Origin: Thioalkalivibrio paradoxus ARh 1 | Lineage (GTDB): Bacteria; Pseudomonadota; Gammaproteobacteria; Ectothiorhodospirales; Ectothiorhodospiraceae | DNA length: 64,000 nucleotides | Reading direction: 5' to 3' | Assembly: GCF_000227685.2 (NCBI RefSeq) | Contig: NZ_CP007029.1 | Location: 2,950,501-3,014,500, forward strand | Part shown: positions 3,269 through 59,545 of the stretch, piece by piece | Numbering within the stretch: position 1 is the stretch's first letter | How the letters are laid out: every line of letters begins with the position of its first letter | Program-made: the position numbers and the translations under genes | The notes under the pieces: generated by a model | Told to the model about the DNA's origin: nothing | The model's database searches: none | The model's input: the letters and a program-made list of their open reading frames with translations, nothing else

Positions 3269-3961
3269 ATGGCACTGCCCCATCTGCATCTGATCAGCTT
3301 TCCGTTGTGTCCGTTCGTGCAGCGTAGCGTCATCACGCTGAAACACAAGAATATCCCGTTCGAACGGACCTACCTCGATCCCACCGCGCTGCCGGATTGG
3401 TTCCTGGAGAAATCCCCCACCGGCAAGGTCCCGCTGCTGATCGTCGACGAACGCAGCGTGCTGTTCGAGTCCGCGGCGATCAACGAGTACCTGGACGAAA
3501 TCTCCCCGCCCCGACTGCTGCCGGAAGACCCGCTGGAACGGGCCCAGGCCCGCGCCTGGATCGCGCTCGCATCGGAGATGATCGCGGCTCAGTTCCGCTG
3601 GATGGGCGCACCCACCGAGGAAGCCTTCGGCGAGGCCCGCGACGAGGCCGCAAAGGGTTTGCGCCAGTTCGAAAAGCAGTGCCGAGCCGGCCCCTGCTTC
3701 ACCGGACCCGATTTCTCGCTGCTCGACGCCACCGTGGCACCGGTGCTGATGCGCTACGAACTGCTGCAGGATCCCGGCAGCCCCTGGCAGCCGGCGGAGT
3801 TCCCGAACCTTGCGCGCTGGTGGCAACACATCTCGGAAATGCCTGCGGTGCGCGAGTCCGTGCCCGACGATTTCCTGGCACGCCTGCCCCGCTTCCTGAA
3901 CAATCAGCAGGGCTTTGCCGGACCGCGCCTGGCCGCCGGTCTCGCGGAACGGGGCCACTGA
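3269..3961 (+). CDS. Glutathione S-transferase-family protein (thioredoxin-fold N-domain)
   Basis: A 230-residue cytoplasmic GST-fold protein. The N-terminal thioredoxin-like domain has the motif FPLCPFVQR, a Cys-Pro site typical of omega/zeta-like or SspA-like GSTs. It is followed by the cis-Pro segment GKVPLLIVD and the glutathione-contact ESAAINEYLDE. An all-alpha C-domain follows from about residue 85. The ATG sits 8 nt after CTCTGGAGG, a good ribosome-binding site. Its 3' end overlaps the oppositely oriented YcgN-like gene by 58 bp. Substrate unknown. Confidence 0.87.
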   Translation: MALPHLHLISFPLCPFVQRSVITLKHKNIPFERTYLDPTALPDWFLEKSPTGKVPLLIVDERSVLFESAAINEYLDEISPPRLLPEDPLERAQARAWIALASEMIAAQFRWMGAPTEEAFGEARDEAAKGLRQFEKQCRAGPCFTGPDFSLLDATVAPVLMRYELLQDPGSPWQPAEFPNLARWWQHISEMPAVRESVPDDFLARLPRFLNNQQGFAGPRLAAGLAERGH

Positions 3962-4395
3962 CCCGGCCAGTCCACGATGAAGTCCTCCAGCGGCAGGTCG
4001 GGTGCCTCGTCCTCGCGGACCACCCGGCCCGCCACCGAGACCCCCGCCGCGCGCACGCTGTCCGGATCCCCCGAGAGCAGCGGGTGCCAGGCGGGCAGCG
4101 GAACCCCCCGGTGCCGGAGGCGATAGGCACAGGTCGGCGGCAGCCACTCGTATTCGGCAACGGTCGCTAGCGTCACGCGCAGGCAGTCGGGCACCTGCTG
4201 GTGCCGGTTCGGGTAGTCGGAACAGCGGCCGGTCGTGCAATCCAGCAGACGGCAGGCAAGCCAGGTATGCGCGAGCGCTCCGCTGTCCTCGTCTTCCAGC
4301 TTGTGCAGGCAGCAGCGCCCGCAGCCGTCGCACAGGGCTTCCCACTCCGCCTCGTCGAGCGTCGCCAGCGGACGTTCCCAGAACGGTTCGGGCAT
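3904..4395 (-). CDS. YcgN-family (UPF0260) cysteine-cluster protein
   Basis: A 163-residue cytoplasmic protein of the UPF0260/YcgN family. The dense cysteine motif CDGCGRCC at residues 22-29 is followed by ACRLLDCTTGRC and further Cys residues, a pattern typical of metal or iron-sulfur binding. Biochemical role is not established. The ATG overlaps the stop of the upstream gene by one base (TGATG), so the two form an operon. The last 58 bp run into the convergent GST gene. Confidence 0.85.
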   Translation of the reverse strand: MPEPFWERPLATLDEAEWEALCDGCGRCCLHKLEDEDSGALAHTWLACRLLDCTTGRCSDYPNRHQQVPDCLRVTLATVAEYEWLPPTCAYRLRHRGVPLPAWHPLLSGDPDSVRAAGVSVAGRVVREDEAPDLPLEDFIVDWPGQWPRSARPAARRGPAKPC

Positions 4396-5099
4396 CAGGA
4401 AGCCTCTGCCGGAGCGTCGTCGAGGCGACGCTGCCCGGCCTGTTCCAGACGCTCCAGCACCCGTTCCCAGCGGTCGGGCGTCGCGTAGTGCATCAGCATC
4501 CGCCCGCGCCGCCCCGGCACGACGATCGCCAGCCCGTTTTCCGGATACAGCCAGTAGTCCTGATCGTCCTCCAGCCGGATCCGCGACACCGGGTCGCCGA
4601 AACGTTCCCGGATCAAGTCTCCATCCCAGCGGGCGCGGGGGATGTAGCTCAATTCCGCCACTGGTACACGCCCCAGTTCGATCAGCGCGGCATCGCCCAG
4701 CCCGTACCGGCGAGCCCCACTCGGCATCGGCCGCTCCGACGTTCGCTGCTCCCAGACGCGCTCGAGCGCTGGTTCGTCCAGGTCGAGGACCATCACGAGA
4801 TTGGCCTCGAACGGCGGGATCCGGGCGTTGGAGAAAAAGGCCTCCACGCTGCGGGCACCGTCGGGTTCGACGAACAGCCGGATATCGGGGACGGGCAGGC
4901 GCCCGGCGAGATCCGCCAGCGTCGTCTCGCCCAGCACGATCCCGAGCACCCGGACCCGGTCCGCGCCCAACACCTCGATCTGCCACGGCAGGTTCTCGAA
5001 GCGCTGGACCTGGGGTTCCCGGGGCACCAGCAGAAAGGCCGCCAGCAGTGCCGCCAGCAACAGCCCCACGAACCACCAGCCTACTGCACGTACACGCAT
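4395..5099 (-). CDS. Membrane-anchored protein of unknown function
   Basis: A 234-residue protein with one N-terminal hydrophobic segment (WWFVGLLLAALLAAFLLV, about residues 7-24), so it is probably inner-membrane anchored with a periplasmic domain. I do not recognise the family. The rest is mixed alpha/beta with no cysteines or evident catalytic motif. The chosen ATG lies directly behind GGAGGGCGG; an in-frame ATG eight codons earlier is possible. It is co-transcribed with the YcgN-like gene. Confidence 0.7.
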   Translation of the reverse strand: MRVRAVGWWFVGLLLAALLAAFLLVPREPQVQRFENLPWQIEVLGADRVRVLGIVLGETTLADLAGRLPVPDIRLFVEPDGARSVEAFFSNARIPPFEANLVMVLDLDEPALERVWEQRTSERPMPSGARRYGLGDAALIELGRVPVAELSYIPRARWDGDLIRERFGDPVSRIRLEDDQDYWLYPENGLAIVVPGRRGRMLMHYATPDRWERVLERLEQAGQRRLDDAPAEAS

Positions 5100-53551: not shown

Positions 53552-53613
53552 TCTCGTCGGATGATTCGGAACCGGTTTTGGAGTCTAGACGCAGACGGCC
53601 GGCGGCTGCATCC

Positions 53614-53940
53614 ATGAGCGGGGCGCTGGGAAACCTGTTTGGCCGGCTGCCTTCCTTGGCGCAGGGCGAGGCGTTCGAGGATCTATTGCGCCGCAATCCT
53701 GTGCGTATCGAACGGATCGTCAGCAGCGGCCGCCCGGAGCCCACCCTGTACGATCAGGAGCAGGACGAGTGGGTATGTCTGCTGCAGGGCGAGGCCGAAC
53801 TGCAGTTGGGCAAAGAGCGTGTGCCTCTGCAGGCCGGGGACTACCTGTTCATCCCGGCGCACACGCCGCACCGCGTGCTGCGTACCTCCGCGGAACCGCC
53901 GTGCATCTGGCTTGCGGTGCACATCGACCCCACCGGCTGA
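53614..53940 (+). CDS. Small cupin-domain protein
   Basis: A 108-residue single cupin. Motif 1 is DEWVCLLQGEAELQ, with the usual histidines missing, and motif 2 is AGDYLFIPAHTPHRVLRT, where both histidines are present. The short PTG end completes the domain. Family function is unknown; relatives sit in many metabolic settings. Divergent from the TlpA fusion. Confidence 0.82.
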   Translation: MSGALGNLFGRLPSLAQGEAFEDLLRRNPVRIERIVSSGRPEPTLYDQEQDEWVCLLQGEAELQLGKERVPLQAGDYLFIPAHTPHRVLRTSAEPPCIWLAVHIDPTG

Positions 53941-54069
53941 ATCGGCGCCGCCTGCCTGCCATCCAGGCCCGCGCGTGATGGTTCCGTTGAACGCGTCGGT
54001 GTACACTCAGGCGCAGCCCAGCGGGCCCTTGAACAGGCCCCAAGTCCTTGACGAAAGGGTCCCGAACTC

Positions 54070-55299
54070 TTGATCCCGATCCCCGCAACGCCCGCAACTT
54101 CCCAGCGCGTCTTCGACCCCAGAAGTCCGGAACTGGTCGAGCGTCCGTACGATGTTTATCGGCATCTGCGCGATGAGGATCCGGTGCACCGGAGCCCGTT
54201 CGGCATGTGGGTGCTTTCACGTTATGAGGATGTTTACAGGGCCCTGCGCGACCCACGTCTAAGTTCGAAGCCGTCGCGCTACTCGGTGCATGCGGCGCAC
54301 CGAAACCGTTCCACGCCCGCGGCGATCGCAGCTCAACACATGATCATGTTTCTGGATGCCCCGGAACACACCCGCCTGCGCGGCCTGCTAGCGCGTGTCA
54401 TCACCGATAACCTCGCGGCAAACATGCGCGAACGCATTCAGAAACTGGTCGACGACTTGCTGGAGGGGCCACTGGAACGTGGCGAAATGGACATTGTGCG
54501 CGATCTCGCAATTCCCCTTCCTCTGAACGTGATCGCCGAGTTGCTGGGAATCCCGGCCGAGGACCGCTCCAGGCTCAAGGAATGGTCGAACTGGTTCTTT
54601 CAGATCTTCTCGCCAGTGGTTTCCGAAGAGGGTAGAAACCGGCTCAACCACGCGATCCTGGAGTTTCGTGAGTATCTCGGGGCGTTGGCAAGCGAACGCC
54701 GGCGGTCCCCACGGCAAGACATCGTCAGCAGCCTGATCGCGGTTTCGGTCGATGGCGACCGACTGACCGATGATGAGATCTTCACCAGCTGTCTGGCGCT
54801 GTTTTCCAATGGCCAGGAAGCGCTGTCGCACCTCGTGGGAAATGGCATGCTCGCGCTGCTCCAACACCCCGAACAGATGCGTCGGCTTCGTGAAGACCCC
54901 GGGATGATCCGCAACGCAGTGGAAGAACTGCTCCGCTATGATACCCCGGCCCAGACGGTTGGCCGCACGGCGACCGAGGCGATTGAGCTACACGGCAAAG
55001 TGATTCCCGCAGGCGCGCCCGTTTATTTGCTGATCGGCTCTGCCAATCGGGATCCATGCCGCTTCCCGAACCCGGACATACTGGATTTGTCACGTCCGGA
55101 CTGCAGGCACCTTTCATTCGGCACCGGACCGCATGCTTGCCTTGGTGCTGGGCTGGCACGCGTAGAAGCTCAGGCAGCCATTCTGACTCTGCTTACCAAG
55201 ACACAGGACATGGAACTCTGTGGGGGCCCGCCAACGCGACTCCCGAACATCTTCGTGCGGGGCCTTGAGGCACTCCCCGTTCGGTTCCGAGCATGCTGA
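54070..55299 (+). CDS. Cytochrome P450 monooxygenase
   Basis: A 409-residue soluble bacterial P450. The haem-thiolate motif FGTGPHACLG sits at about 349-358, the ExxR pair is in VEELLRYD and HTRLRGLLARV matches helix C. The I-helix reads LALFSNGQEALSHL, where the usual acid-alcohol pair (GHETT) is E-A, so the conserved Thr is missing. Initiation is at TTG 54070, with AAAGGG 10 nt upstream, or at a later codon. It precedes an NRPS-like gene by 70 bp and may act on its carrier-bound substrate (inference). Confidence 0.93.
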   Translation: MIPIPATPATSQRVFDPRSPELVERPYDVYRHLRDEDPVHRSPFGMWVLSRYEDVYRALRDPRLSSKPSRYSVHAAHRNRSTPAAIAAQHMIMFLDAPEHTRLRGLLARVITDNLAANMRERIQKLVDDLLEGPLERGEMDIVRDLAIPLPLNVIAELLGIPAEDRSRLKEWSNWFFQIFSPVVSEEGRNRLNHAILEFREYLGALASERRRSPRQDIVSSLIAVSVDGDRLTDDEIFTSCLALFSNGQEALSHLVGNGMLALLQHPEQMRRLREDPGMIRNAVEELLRYDTPAQTVGRTATEAIELHGKVIPAGAPVYLLIGSANRDPCRFPNPDILDLSRPDCRHLSFGTGPHACLGAGLARVEAQAAILTLLTKTQDMELCGGPPTRLPNIFVRGLEALPVRFRAC

Positions 55300-55369
55300 T
55301 CCCGATGCTCGGCACTATTACCGTCACCCGCCCGATACCCAACGAGCCCGGACTTCCGGGCGTTGATTC

Positions 55370-57709
55370 ATGACAGGCACGCAGCTCTTACCACTCGAGT
55401 CGTTCGATCAGATGGTGCTCACGTACCCGGATGCGCCGGCAATTCGTCATGCACAGGGGCATATGACGTACCTGCAACTGGACGAACATGCCAACAGGCT
55501 TGCAGGCCTCCTGCTCGACCGCGGTGCTGGACGTGGAGATCTCGTCGGGCTGGTTTCGGGCAGGGCACCCGATGCCGTGATTGGGATGCTGGGCATCATG
55601 AAGGCGGGCGCGGGCTATCTACCCCTGGATCCAGATTACCCGGCCGAGTGGCAGGCAGCCGTGCTCAGAGACAGCCGCCCATGTTTGCTGGTCGGATCGC
55701 GGCCAACGGTCGATTGCGAAATCCCCCTCCTGCCCTCTGATGACTGGATGGACGAGCCAGCGCACGGTGAGCCTTGTAAGGCCGTTACCGGGAGGCCCCA
55801 TCCTCACGACCTGATGTACGTGATGTACACCTCGGGCTCTACGGGCCGCCCCAAGGGCGTGAAGGTTTCCCACGGGAACGTGGCGCGACTCTTCCCTGCG
55901 GTGGGCGCACACCTTGAGTTCAGCCGCAACGACGTTTGGGCACATTGTCACTCGCCATCCTTTGGTTTCTCCGTGTGGGAAATCTGGGGAGCACTGGCCC
56001 ATGGCGGCTGCCTCGTGATCGTTCCACCGGAAACCTTGCGGGAACCGGGCAGGACACTCGAGTGGCTGATGCAGGAGCGGGTAAGCGTGTTGAGCCAAAC
56101 ACCGACCGCGTTCCGGATGCTCGCACGCGATCTGAACCGGGTGCCAGAGGCAGGGCTCAGCCACCTGCGGGTCGTGGCGTTCAGCGGGGAACCGCTGGAC
56201 GGGCACATACTGCAGCCCTGGTTCGCCCGTTTCGGTGACGACCATCCGATTCTGGTGAACCTTTACGCACTCACCGAAACGTCCGGCGAAATCACTTTTC
56301 ATCGGGTCCGGGCCTCCGAACCCACTGCCAACGAGCGCGTGATCGGGGTGCCCCTGCCCGATGTACAACTCTTCCTGATGGATGAGCACCGGAGACTGGT
56401 CGCGGATGGCGAAATCGGAGAACTGTATGTAGGGGGACCAGCGGTTGCGCTCGGCTATCTCGGCGCGGATGAAGCCGATGAACAGCGATTCCTGGTCAAT
56501 CACATCAAGGAAGATGGAAGCCGCATGTACCGCACCGGCGACATGGCCCGTCGCCTGCCCGATGGCACGTACCAGTTCACTGGCCGGAGCGACCGGCAAG
56601 TCAAGGTGCGCGGGTACCGTATCGAACCCGCATCCGTCGAAGGCGTCCTTCGGACTCACGATTCGGTGATCGATGCAGTCGTGCTGCCGGACGATCAAGC
56701 TGGAATCGTCGCGGGCCTCGCAGCGTTCGTGGTTCTGCATCACCGCGATGCGTTTCCGGACAGACTGCGGGATCACCTGAGCGCAAGCGTGCCGCATTAC
56801 GCGATTCCCGATCGGATTTTCGCGATCGACCGCATTCCACAAACCGCCACCGGGAAACTGGATACCGCGGCGCTGCTCGCAATGCGTTCACAGGATTCGG
56901 TTAGCGAGGAATCCCGGGAGCTCCAGAACGAGGTGCCGTTCGGAACGGACGCTGGGAACGTGGCCGCCACCATCGAACAGATCTGGTGCCAACTGTTGCA
57001 GCGCAACACGATTGCGCGCGACGAAGATTTCTTCGACCTGGGCGGGCACTCGTTGCTGACGCTGAATCTCGTTCTGATGCTCGAAGAGAAACTGGGAGTC
57101 GATATCAGCATGACCGACGTATTCGAGAACCCCTCGCTCGGTCAGCTTTCGACCTTCGTGTCCGACCGGCTCAAGGCCGCCCGCACGCCTGCGCAGCTGC
57201 CGCCCCCCGCCAAAGCCACTCTCGTGAACCCCGCTCGAGCCGATGGCCATGTCGAACACATGCGTGTCGCAATTTCCAAGGCACGGGAAGCCATCGCCAA
57301 TGGACAGCCGCCGTACGCCGCCTGCCTCGTCCGCAACGGCCGGGTACTGGTCGCAGTCCACAACGTCATCTGGCGCGATGTGGATCCGACCGCGCACGCG
57401 GAGGTGACAGCAATCAGAGAGGCCTGTCGCCTCCTCGGTACCATGGATCTATCTGACTGCGTCCTGTACTCCACTGCGGAACCCTGCAGCATGTGTCTGA
57501 GCGCCACGGCCTGGGCGAATATTAGAACGGTGGTCTACAGTGCTCGCATGGAGGACGAGGAGCGCTACGGTCTGAGCTCGGCGACGGTCCCTGTGGCAAC
57601 GATGGTGTCCCTGCTCGGACGTGAAATCGCGATTGTTCCGGATTGCCTGAGGACTGAAATGCAAACGTTGTTCGAGGATTGGTTGCGCATCAAGGCCTTG
57701 GCGATCTGA
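55370..57709 (+). CDS. NRPS-like adenylation-PCP protein fused to a cytidine/guanine-deaminase domain
   Basis: A 779-residue three-domain protein. The adenylation domain (about 10-500) has A3 YTSGSTGRPKG, A5 NLYALTETSGE, A8 GRSDRQVKVRGYRIEP and A10 PQTATGKLD with the catalytic Lys. A carrier domain follows (about 525-600), with the phosphopantetheine Ser in DLGGHSLLTL. The last ~150 residues are a zinc deaminase: PTAHAEVTAI (His and Glu, about 673) and AEPCSMCLS (two Cys, about 704). In A4 the reading is SFGFSVWEIW, so the Asp that normally holds the alpha-amino group is Gly. It could activate, tether and deaminate an unusual substrate. No condensation or thioesterase domain. Confidence 0.9.
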   Translation: MTGTQLLPLESFDQMVLTYPDAPAIRHAQGHMTYLQLDEHANRLAGLLLDRGAGRGDLVGLVSGRAPDAVIGMLGIMKAGAGYLPLDPDYPAEWQAAVLRDSRPCLLVGSRPTVDCEIPLLPSDDWMDEPAHGEPCKAVTGRPHPHDLMYVMYTSGSTGRPKGVKVSHGNVARLFPAVGAHLEFSRNDVWAHCHSPSFGFSVWEIWGALAHGGCLVIVPPETLREPGRTLEWLMQERVSVLSQTPTAFRMLARDLNRVPEAGLSHLRVVAFSGEPLDGHILQPWFARFGDDHPILVNLYALTETSGEITFHRVRASEPTANERVIGVPLPDVQLFLMDEHRRLVADGEIGELYVGGPAVALGYLGADEADEQRFLVNHIKEDGSRMYRTGDMARRLPDGTYQFTGRSDRQVKVRGYRIEPASVEGVLRTHDSVIDAVVLPDDQAGIVAGLAAFVVLHHRDAFPDRLRDHLSASVPHYAIPDRIFAIDRIPQTATGKLDTAALLAMRSQDSVSEESRELQNEVPFGTDAGNVAATIEQIWCQLLQRNTIARDEDFFDLGGHSLLTLNLVLMLEEKLGVDISMTDVFENPSLGQLSTFVSDRLKAARTPAQLPPPAKATLVNPARADGHVEHMRVAISKAREAIANGQPPYAACLVRNGRVLVAVHNVIWRDVDPTAHAEVTAIREACRLLGTMDLSDCVLYSTAEPCSMCLSATAWANIRTVVYSARMEDEERYGLSSATVPVATMVSLLGREIAIVPDCLRTEMQTLFEDWLRIKALAI

Positions 57710-57865
57710 ACATCTCTTGGACAGCACGGCCGCGCTCGGCACGAATGAAAGGGGTAGCGTGTACGGCGGCCTTGCCGTGCGGAAACCGGAGGCAGGTAGT
57801 CCTGCACTTATTCGGCTCTCCTCGGCCCGGTGCCATCGACGGCTCATGAACACAATGGCGGACGC

Positions 57866-58531
57866 ATGAACAGGCTCGTAATCTATGGTAATGGCCAAGT
57901 GGCCGAACTTGCGCTTGCTCGGCTGCGCCGTGACACGCAGTACGAACTCGCCGCCTGCACTGTAGACCGGGATCTGATCCAGTCTCAACGGTTTCAGGGC
58001 CTGCCGGTGATCCCGTTCGATGAAATCGAACAGCACTACCCCCCCGACAGCCACCGCATGCTCGTGGCAGTCGGCCACACGGGTGTTAACCGGATCCGTG
58101 CCGAACGGTTCAATCTTGCGCGTGCGAAGGGTTACCGTTTTATCCGCCTGATCAGCCCCCGTGCCGATGTCTGGCCCGACGTGGAACTGGGCGAGAATTG
58201 CATGATCGGTGACGGCTGTATCGTGCTGCCGTTTTCCCGACTTGGTGACAACGTGCACCTTGGCACGGGTTGCACCATCGGCCATCACGTCACGATCGGA
58301 GACCACAGTTCGCTGGCCATGAACGTGGTCGTGGCCGGGAGCGTACAGATCGAATCGGGCGCGTTTCTTGGGGCGGGCGTGACGGTTCGCGACCGTATCA
58401 CCGTGGGCACCGGGGCCTTCCTTGGAGCGGGCGTTGTGCTGCAATCGGATGCGGCACCCAAGTCCGTCTATGCTGCCCCGGAACCACGTTTGCTACCCAT
58501 TGCCAGCGACAAGCTTCCGGGCCTGAGTTGA
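57866..58531 (+). CDS. NeuD-family sugar O-acyltransferase (left-handed beta-helix)
   Basis: A 221-residue protein. A Rossmann-like PglD_N/NeuD N-domain (RLVIYGNGQVAELALARL) is followed by hexapeptide repeats forming a left-handed beta-helix (VELGENCMIGDGCIVLPFS, LGTGCTIGHHVTIGDHSS). The His-His pair in GHHVTIGD is at the usual catalytic place. It would transfer an acyl group from acyl-CoA to an amino or hydroxyl group. In this cluster it may decorate the NRPS/P450 product. Confidence 0.85.
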   Translation: MNRLVIYGNGQVAELALARLRRDTQYELAACTVDRDLIQSQRFQGLPVIPFDEIEQHYPPDSHRMLVAVGHTGVNRIRAERFNLARAKGYRFIRLISPRADVWPDVELGENCMIGDGCIVLPFSRLGDNVHLGTGCTIGHHVTIGDHSSLAMNVVVAGSVQIESGAFLGAGVTVRDRITVGTGAFLGAGVVLQSDAAPKSVYAAPEPRLLPIASDKLPGLS

Positions 58532-58653
58532 ATCGCTTCGGCAAATCGGCAGTTGAATAGGGGGCGACCAGTGACGCAACCCACGATCAACCAACATCCA
58601 CTAGGCCCGTTCACGATGGTACACTCCATCGCCTCCCAGGGAACCCATTGATC

Positions 58654-59112
58654 ATGCGTATCACCCGAAAGCTGGAGTTCGACGCGGGCCACCGCATCCC
58701 GGACCATCGCAGCCAGTGCCGACACCTGCACGGACACCGTTACACGATCATGATCACCCTTCGCGGCGAGATCATCGAAGCTTCGGGGGAACCCGTGAAC
58801 GGCATGGTCATGGACTTCTCCGACGTCAAGGCCATCGCCAAGACCCACTTGGTCGATCACTGGGACCACGCGTTCCTCGTCTACCGGGGGGACCACAAGG
58901 TGGCGGAGTTCCTGGCCAGCATGCCGGATCACAAGACGGTCGTGCTGGACTGCGTGCCGACCGCGGAGAATCTCGCCCAGCTCGCGTTCCGGATCCTGGA
59001 TCCGCTGTACCGGGACACTTACGGCAATCAGCTGCGTCTGGACCGCGTTCGTCTTTACGAAACCCCAAACTGTTGGGCGGATGCGGTGCGCGCAGACCTG
59101 GAAGATCGGTAA
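58654..59112 (+). CDS. 6-pyruvoyl-tetrahydropterin synthase / QueD-family enzyme
   Basis: A 152-residue T-fold enzyme. Zinc ligands are His in FDAGHRI and in HLHGHRY, with the catalytic Cys in SQCRHLHGH. DHWDHAFLV and the substrate-binding Glu in RLYETPN are also present. Such enzymes convert 7,8-dihydroneopterin triphosphate to 6-carboxy-tetrahydropterin (QueD) or 6-pyruvoyl-tetrahydropterin. It is longer than typical QueD (~120). It could serve queuosine synthesis or supply the neighbouring cluster. ATG 58654 is preferred over TTG 58648. Confidence 0.87.
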   Translation: MRITRKLEFDAGHRIPDHRSQCRHLHGHRYTIMITLRGEIIEASGEPVNGMVMDFSDVKAIAKTHLVDHWDHAFLVYRGDHKVAEFLASMPDHKTVVLDCVPTAENLAQLAFRILDPLYRDTYGNQLRLDRVRLYETPNCWADAVRADLEDR

Positions 59113-59271: not shown

Positions 59272-59545
59272 GTAGGGCGGAATAGCGCAGCGTCATCCGC
59301 CGTGCGGCGTTCATGCCGCCCAGGAGCCGGGGGGCACCCCAGCGCCGGCTGGCGGATGACGGCCTTCGGCCTTTTCCGCCCTACCGTTCGCCCTACCGTT
59401 CGATCAGTCCCGTAGGGCGGAATAGCGCAGCGTCATCCGCCGTGCGGCGTTCATGCCGCCCAGGAGCCGGGGGCGCCCCAGCGCCGGCTGGCGGATGACG
59501 GCCTTCGGCCTTTTCCGCCCTACCGTTCGCCCTACCCTTCGATCA
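59272..59545. repeat. Two tandem 140-bp palindromic repeat units
   Basis: Units at 59272-59411 and 59412-59545 are nearly identical. Each begins GTAGGGCGGAATAGCGCAGC and contains nested inverted arms: GTAGGGCGGAA / TTCCGCCCTAC and CGTCATCCGCC / GGCGGATGACG. A decayed partial copy lies at about 59203-59243. This GTAGGGCGGA-type element is dispersed in many proteobacterial genomes. It sits between the convergent queD-like and tex genes and may also end transcription from both sides. Confidence 0.9.

Follow-up and report, generated by a model that had tools for sequence, protein, structure and literature searches.

Pepteridine biosynthesis in Photorhabdus couples GTP cyclohydrolase I and 6-pyruvoyltetrahydropterin synthase to NRPS machinery (passages of PMC5384830). 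In the open-access literature it is the sole pteridine-NRPS hybrid among the papers listed, a scope outside which most subscription journals lie. Fungal lumazine peptides, the terrelumamides and penilumamides, contain methylated lumazine-6-carboxylic acid in amide linkage (PMC4377984); the penilumamide gene cluster is stated to be uncharacterised in passages of PMC9861175, which makes a comparison of genes with it impossible. In the queuosine pathway, QueD converts dihydroneopterin triphosphate to 6-carboxytetrahydropterin, and QueE converts that product to 7-carboxy-7-deazaguanine (passages of PMC11888242). The product of QueD is an acid and could therefore be activated by an adenylation (A) domain.

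We analyzed a four-gene cluster of the window (the whole stretch of DNA under study, 64,000 nucleotides) that likewise places a pterin enzyme beside NRPS domains. No listed open-access paper combines an A domain with QueD and a deaminase domain, which is not proof of novelty. The cluster represents a pathway that is real, conserved and, in all probability, based on a pterin, and an earlier sequence-only reading is borne out both on the pathway and on its connection to pterins. We favor, with moderate confidence, the reading that it is a compact representative of an NRPS family that activates a pteridine carboxylate, acting through the steps proposed below.

Organization of the cluster

The four open frames all lie on the same strand (Table 1), with intergenic gaps of 70, 120 and 116 bp. 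They had been described from sequence as genes for a P450, an A-PCP-deaminase protein, an acyltransferase and a QueD homolog, and families over their cut-offs confirm all four. The fusion frame matches Pfam AMP-binding (273 bits), PP-binding (61 bits) and dCMP_cyt_deam_1 (81 bits) over cut-off, and its A domain scores 376.9 bits with TIGR01733 (cut-off 317.4). The acyltransferase reaches 167 bits with NeuD_NnaD (cut-off 160.8) and QueD about 95.3 bits with TIGR03367 (equivalog cut-off 89.25). The motifs for the carrier serine (LGGHSL), zinc (HAE and PCSMC), haem (FGTGPHACLG) and QueD (CRHLHGH) are intact. As relatives indicate, the true starts of NeuD and QueD are probably near 57866 and 58654, respectively.

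Table 1. Positions of genes and domains of the cluster in the window.
Feature	Position	Strand	Evidence
Cytochrome P450, 409 aa, TTG start	54070-55299	+	Pfam p450 98.5 bits, over cut-off
A-PCP-deaminase fusion, 779 aa	55370-57709	+	Pfam; full-length relatives in two genomes, 50% identity
Adenylation domain, code GFWSASLGEK, Gly235	55370-56876	+	A4 motif FGFSVWEIW at 55961
Carrier (PCP) domain, LGGHSL	56969-57160	+	PP-binding 61.3 bits; motif at residue 557
Guanine-deaminase-like zinc deaminase domain	57248-57706	+	HAE at 57395, PCSMC at 57482
NeuD/PglD-like hexapeptide acyltransferase	57830-58531	+	NCBIfam NeuD_NnaD over cut-off
QueD, 6-carboxytetrahydropterin synthase	58648-59112	+	NCBIfam QueD over cut-off; CRHLHGH

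Pfam matches of the four proteins include neither a condensation nor a thioesterase domain, which indicates an NRPS-like enzyme, not a full assembly line. The window's genome, a single contig of 3.76 Mb, has two matches of the phosphopantetheinyl transferase family over cut-off. A scan for promoters and terminators yielded nothing above chance. The structure model of the full-length fusion was not used as evidence (three-row alignment, mean pLDDT 52).

Relatives of the whole fusion

The full fusion is encoded in two more genomes, Candidatus Contendobacter (L097/L103, genome G807) and Inhella proteolytica (L085/L104, genome G797), at 50% identity across almost the entire protein, so that it is not a frame accident. 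In both genomes it is flanked by a P450 on one side and a NeuD on the other, the three genes recurring at 50-61% identity. The P450 of the window is 58% identical to the one adjoining the fusion in Contendobacter and 56% identical to that of Inhella, and among the 7 of 96 genomes matching it at E 1e-40 (its own included) no match exceeds 37% identity. For NeuD the corresponding values are 56% and 61%. All three NeuD proteins keep the GHH motif; the best solved relative of the window's protein is perosamine N-acetyltransferase, whose histidine, presumably catalytic, aligns with one that is also kept in all three.

The position of QueD is more variable. Contendobacter carries a 117-aa QueD-type gene between the P450 and the fusion, and no QueD was found within the 20 kb examined around the Inhella cluster; three PTPS repeats are, however, encoded in one 375-aa frame on a separate contig of that genome. 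The sequence-only reading had staked its pathway on the QueD-like or NeuD-like gene being conserved beside the fusion: this was found for NeuD in both full-fusion genomes, and for QueD in one of these two (Contendobacter) as well as, within 4 kb, in 16/23 wider relatives. Frames with several PTPS repeats were seen at G797:C2:80396-81433 (three repeats; L132, Inhella) and at G791:C325:22028-22726 (two; Oceanospirillum).

Among the matches listed for relatives (96 genomes), the class (369) and the phylum (398), the whole fusion occurred only in the window's genome. The foreign matches listed end at or before residue 630 (relatives) or start at or after residue 593 (class and phylum), and thus cover A-PCP or the deaminase alone. 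None of 227 matching plasmid records contained 80% of the PCP-deaminase tail. A peptide scan of genome contigs for this tail gave 24 pattern stretches, none of them confirmed, an outcome that we attribute to its exact 8-residue patterns, as an A4-motif pattern at the DNA level later found 23 A-domain loci.

An A domain with glycine at position 235

Pocket positions follow what we take to be GrsA numbering, which agrees with the residues given in PMC11253843. According to passages of that paper, an ordinary A domain holds the amino group of its substrate through Asp235, hydroxy-acid A domains are known that carry Gly or a different small residue there, and a D235G mutation widened the pocket for aryl acids. 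The A domain of the window has Gly at this position and lacks the usual Asp235. The amino acid product envisaged by the sequence-only reading is therefore unsupported.

We searched 84,980 species genomes with a DNA-level A4 pattern in which Gly replaces Asp235 and obtained 25 stretches, of which all except L087 and L092 contain an A domain, leaving 23; viral contigs yielded no stretch with the same pattern. Agreement at Gly235, Phe236 and Trp239 is forced by the pattern and was not counted as evidence. Of the 23 foreign loci, all but the frame-broken L089 gave a readable pocket code, and 21 of these 22 share the code GFWSxSxG[E/Q/R]. Ser278, Ser301, Gly330 and YA[I/L/V]TE, none of them forced by the pattern, are present in 22/22; at position 331, 10 loci have Gln, 8 have Glu, 3 have Arg, and L101 alone has Ala. 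In a tree of 58 rows, the 22 Gly235 rows (the window and 21 others) split from 36 other A domains on a branch supported at 98/97, with the pocket columns kept in and L101 as a long branch. The window, Inhella and Contendobacter cluster together in the same tree (100/94). These A domains thus form one group with one pocket code. L101 itself (3509-5041) is a Lentisphaeria A domain on a long branch with the code GFWSFSQGAK, and neither QueD nor a deaminase was found in its 8 kb.

Two other substrates can be weighed against these data. An A domain loading an amidine or amino-heterocycle amino acid, whose side chain the deaminase would edit while the QueD link were incidental, has a precedent of sorts, as P450 and A-PCP pairs that hydroxylate carrier-bound amino acids exist. 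However, the missing Asp235, the similarity of the deaminase to guanine-type enzymes and a QueD linkage left without explanation make this extremely improbable, and we dropped the idea that the deaminase works on an amidine of a carrier-loaded amino acid. Alternatively, the domain may activate an alpha-hydroxy, alpha-keto or aryl acid, with the QueD pterin made separately and N-acylated and the deaminase acting on free pterin. The small residues of hydroxy-acid domains and the widened aryl pocket (passages of PMC11253843) would agree with this, as would pepteridine, whose pterin accepts the acyl group (passages of PMC5384830). Nevertheless, the linked enzyme is of QueD type (CxxxHGH) and its own product is a carboxylic acid, the deaminase directly follows this module's carrier within one protein in several lineages, and the window cluster has no condensation domain. 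We consider this alternative unlikely.

Gene neighborhoods of the wider family

We then examined 5.6-20 kb around each of the 23 foreign loci, taking distances from the A4 site. Sixteen loci have a QueD-type gene within 4 kb and 17 have a deaminase within 3 kb; 14 loci have both and 19 have either. From PTPS counts and genome sizes, 0.07 loci would be expected to have a neighboring QueD by chance, and chance adjacency was rejected. The linkage to QueD is thus conserved in most of these wider relatives. As a control within genomes, the sole PTPS match of G810 adjoins its Gly235 domain, and the contigs that hold its other A-domain matches (12 listed) carry none; of the 15 A-domain matches listed for G800, not one shares a contig with a PTPS match. 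Neither QueD nor a deaminase was found in the stretches examined for L078, L080, L081 and L101. QueD is present but a deaminase was not found nearby in L100 and in L089, the latter a short contig whose A domain is frame-broken, and L079, L085 and L088 have a deaminase and no QueD in reach; the genome of L088 (G799) has no PTPS match anywhere.

The arrangement of the module varies among lineages. An A-PCP-deaminase-methyltransferase protein is found in L105 (Acidobacteriia), L116 (Synechococcales) and L121 (Oceanospirillum sediminis), and in L105 it stands behind QueD, FolE and an acyl-CoA-dehydrogenase-like gene. The Phycisphaeraceae locus L106 encodes A(methyltransferase-like insert)-PCP-deaminase-C-A-PCP-TE, its insert scoring 26.3 bits, just below the Pfam cut-off of 27. 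In Elainella (L115), PCP-deaminase-methyltransferase and C-A-PCP-TE are separate proteins.

Nine loci of Gammaproteobacteria (L086, L090, L091, L093/L112, L095/L109, L096/L119, L098/L111, L099/L110 and L102/L107) present QueD together with a methyltransferase, a deaminase that is a separate protein and a long NRPS carrying a methyltransferase-like insert, next to F420-type genes. We take the latter to be F420-synthesis genes, CofE-like in 9 loci, CofD-like in 7 and FbiC-like in 6; the names F420-dependent enzyme (relatives) and Dxs (L129) are assumed in the same way. The second modules of these NRPS have the codes V/IDWVxSTxxK, which lack Asp235, and the third modules DVGExxSID. The redox partner of the module differs by lineage, being a P450, an acyl-CoA-dehydrogenase-like protein (3 loci) or F420 genes, and any meaning given to this pairing would be conjectural. 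Lumazine inhibits methanogens, possibly through its likeness to F420 (passages of PMC8498797).

QueD and the queuosine pathway

The genome of the window (G000) and that of its sister G010, a single contig of the same genus, both contain QueC and QueE, in G000 away from the cluster. The only other PTPS match in the window's genome lacks CxxxHGH. A PTPS-family gene in which RLHGA replaces CxxxHGH lies at L002 1489-1887 (G000:C1:1684087) and at L130 1519-1926 (Contendobacter); it stands beside a glycosyltransferase-like gene in L130, and in L002/L063 beside one such gene and a dehydrogenase-like gene.

The presence of QueE and QueC would allow QueD and QueE to supply 7-carboxy-7-deazaguanine as the activated substrate, a planar acid with the same 2-amino group, which the deaminase would turn into a deazaxanthine acid. 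In contrast, four relatives in which QueD adjoins the A domain (G796, G803, G807 and G808) have no QueC over the cut-off, and neither of two QueE models gave a match above 28 bits there, so that QueD in these genomes would serve neither queuosine nor deazaguanine synthesis. Likewise, no QueE was noticed among the open frames of the examined relative loci, as read by eye, and in L105 it is FolE, not QueE, that stands with QueD directly upstream of the A-domain gene. With the caveat that assemblies are incomplete, the four relatives favor a pterin, and a deazaguanine substrate, the deazapurine branch of the sequence-only reading, is disfavored and appears very improbable to us, even if the window's own genome does have QueE.

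The linked QueD-type genes are themselves diverse. Those of L103, L105 and L115 score 81-85 bits, just below the cut-off of 89.25, and that of L111 scores 108 bits. Clearly different sequence types (the window type, a 117-121-aa type and an E. coli-like type) adjoin the same kind of A domain, which suggests that QueD activity was recruited more than once. The PTPS tree has long branches and two misextracted rows (L049 and L055), and we used it for motifs and as a sign of several lineages.

Local history of the cluster

The comparison with G010 provides a view of how the cluster evolved. G010 keeps both immediate flanks (94-96% DNA identity) and QueD (96.8% protein identity), and 4.65 kb of the window, from 53956 to 58607, are replaced by 175 bp, so that P450, fusion and NeuD are absent. 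These 175 bp match the last NeuD codons with an alignment score of 19, whereas 1000 shuffles averaged 8.6 (sd 1.46) and reached 17 at most, and one frame of the scar reads TSDKLP where NeuD C termini read ASDKLP, TSDRLP and SSDKLP. Given this 3′ scar of NeuD, G010 most likely lost the P450, the fusion and NeuD and retained QueD. We infer that the joint arrival of all four genes predates the split of the two species.

Between the window and G010, QueD shows dN of 0.014 and dS of 0.119, indicating purifying selection. Because G010 maintains the gene in this way without the other three, QueD probably also serves queuosine, and our reading is that it was retained there for this need. A QueD of the window type is present in 2/30 same-genus genomes (58 genomes searched), the remaining matches being weak (E 2e-15 or worse); the QueD-type gene of G001, for example, is of another kind (CANMHGH) and has other neighbors. 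The GC-content is 0.617 for QueD, 0.615 for the other three genes and 0.69 for the flanks.

One may therefore ask whether QueD is a housekeeping queuosine gene that by chance neighbors a three-gene cluster not using it. Its persistence in G010 together with both flanks, the QueC and QueE genes of both genomes and the absence of an adjoining QueD in the Inhella cluster are compatible with that view. However, the adjacency is repeated in 16/23 relatives, a QueD-type gene sits inside the cluster of Contendobacter, whose genome has no QueC or QueE match at the thresholds used, the window-type gene is restricted to 2/30 same-genus genomes and shares the GC-content of the island, and the scar in G010 indicates that genes were lost there. 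A chance neighbor is thus quite improbable.

Two further features were observed nearby. A small cupin gene (53608-53937, same strand; weak Nif11/cupin match, below cut-off) lies just 5′ of the P450 and is retained within the aligned flank of G010, which places it outside the lost island. A repeat of about 120-130 bp occurs between QueD and the next gene (window 59278-59545; L062 11066-11311) and is rearranged in G010.

The deaminase domain

By sequence, the deaminase domain is nearest to guanine deaminases (E 2.5e-24) and guanosine deaminases (1.4e-22), followed by TadA (4.8e-21). Its structure model has a pLDDT of 95, and a fold search with this model placed guanosine deaminase matches first (TM 0.82-0.84), with the guanine deaminase NE0047 (TM 0.85-0.87) and TadA (up to 0.86) about equally close. 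Since TadA tRNA deaminases are as close as guanine deaminases, the fold by itself leaves the substrate unsettled. The zinc motifs HAE and PCxxC are invariant in 17/17 aligned deaminase domains, and in several lineages the domain directly follows the carrier of the module in the same polypeptide. Pterin and guanine have the 2-amino-pyrimidinone ring in common.

Proposed pathway

These results suggest a pathway in which the substrate and the order of the steps would be as follows. As strongly suggested by linkage, QueD would convert GTP-derived dihydroneopterin triphosphate to 6-carboxy-5,6,7,8-tetrahydropterin. The A domain would adenylate this carboxypterin acid, or an oxidized form of the pterin, and load it onto the carrier, and the fused deaminase would hydrolyze the 2-amino group of the pterin to leave a lumazine-type ring on the carrier; both steps are moderately suggested. 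More weakly suggested are the last two steps, in which the P450 might oxidize or hydroxylate the bound acid and the NeuD-like acyltransferase might move the carrier-bound acyl group to an amine or hydroxyl, yielding the putative product. Release by NeuD is proposed because the four proteins have no condensation or thioesterase domain. Known relatives of NeuD are sugar acyltransferases, which makes the acceptor and the carrier-bound donor guesses.

A broader proposal is more tentative, and we put its chances somewhat below even. At least four phyla (Pseudomonadota, Cyanobacteriota, Acidobacteriota and Planctomycetota) might share an unreported NRPS starter module for a pteridine carboxylic acid that QueD supplies and a guanine-deaminase-like domain converts to a lumazine on the carrier, and the NeuD-like enzyme of the window might accept a carrier-bound acyl group in place of acyl-CoA, so that no condensation domain would be needed to form an amide or ester. 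If true, a pterin or lumazine acid would be a new NRPS building block, a carrier-linked guanine-type deaminase would be a new tailoring domain, and the queuosine pathway would branch into specialized metabolism. The pocket code together with YA[I/L/V]TE would offer a handle for finding such clusters.

Comparison with known systems

The cluster shares individual elements with several described systems. The QueD step is common to it and the queuosine or 7-deazapurine pathway, and QueE and QueC lie outside the window cluster. Guanine and guanosine deaminases of the cytidine deaminase fold resemble the deaminase domain in sequence, fold and the HAE and PCxxC motifs, but here the domain is fused behind a carrier. 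We take Arad3529 to be an amidohydrolase, of a fold other than that of cytidine deaminase. A pterin deaminase orthologous to Arad3529 is described in passages of PMC9513972. The NeuD-like protein belongs to the same subfamily as the NeuD, PglD and PerB sugar acyltransferases, whereas no sugar genes were seen in the window cluster and the donor may be carrier-bound.

In pepteridine biosynthesis, a carrier and a condensation domain are fused to a protein resembling pyruvate dehydrogenase E2, and the pterin is acylated on nitrogen (passages of PMC5384830); no pyruvate dehydrogenase E2 domain is found among the Pfam matches of our four proteins. The term deaminase is absent from that paper and its passages mention no A domain in the pepteridine cluster, whereas the A domain described here would activate the pteridine's own carboxylate. 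The amide unit of lumazine-6-carboxylic acid in the fungal peptides is of the kind predicted for the relatives with methyltransferase domains, and N-methyl-lumazines like those of the fungal terrelumamides would agree with the methyltransferases of these larger relatives. If the reading is right, these clusters would provide bacterial candidates for lumazine amides, for which the reports found come only from fungi and describe the gene cluster as uncharacterised.
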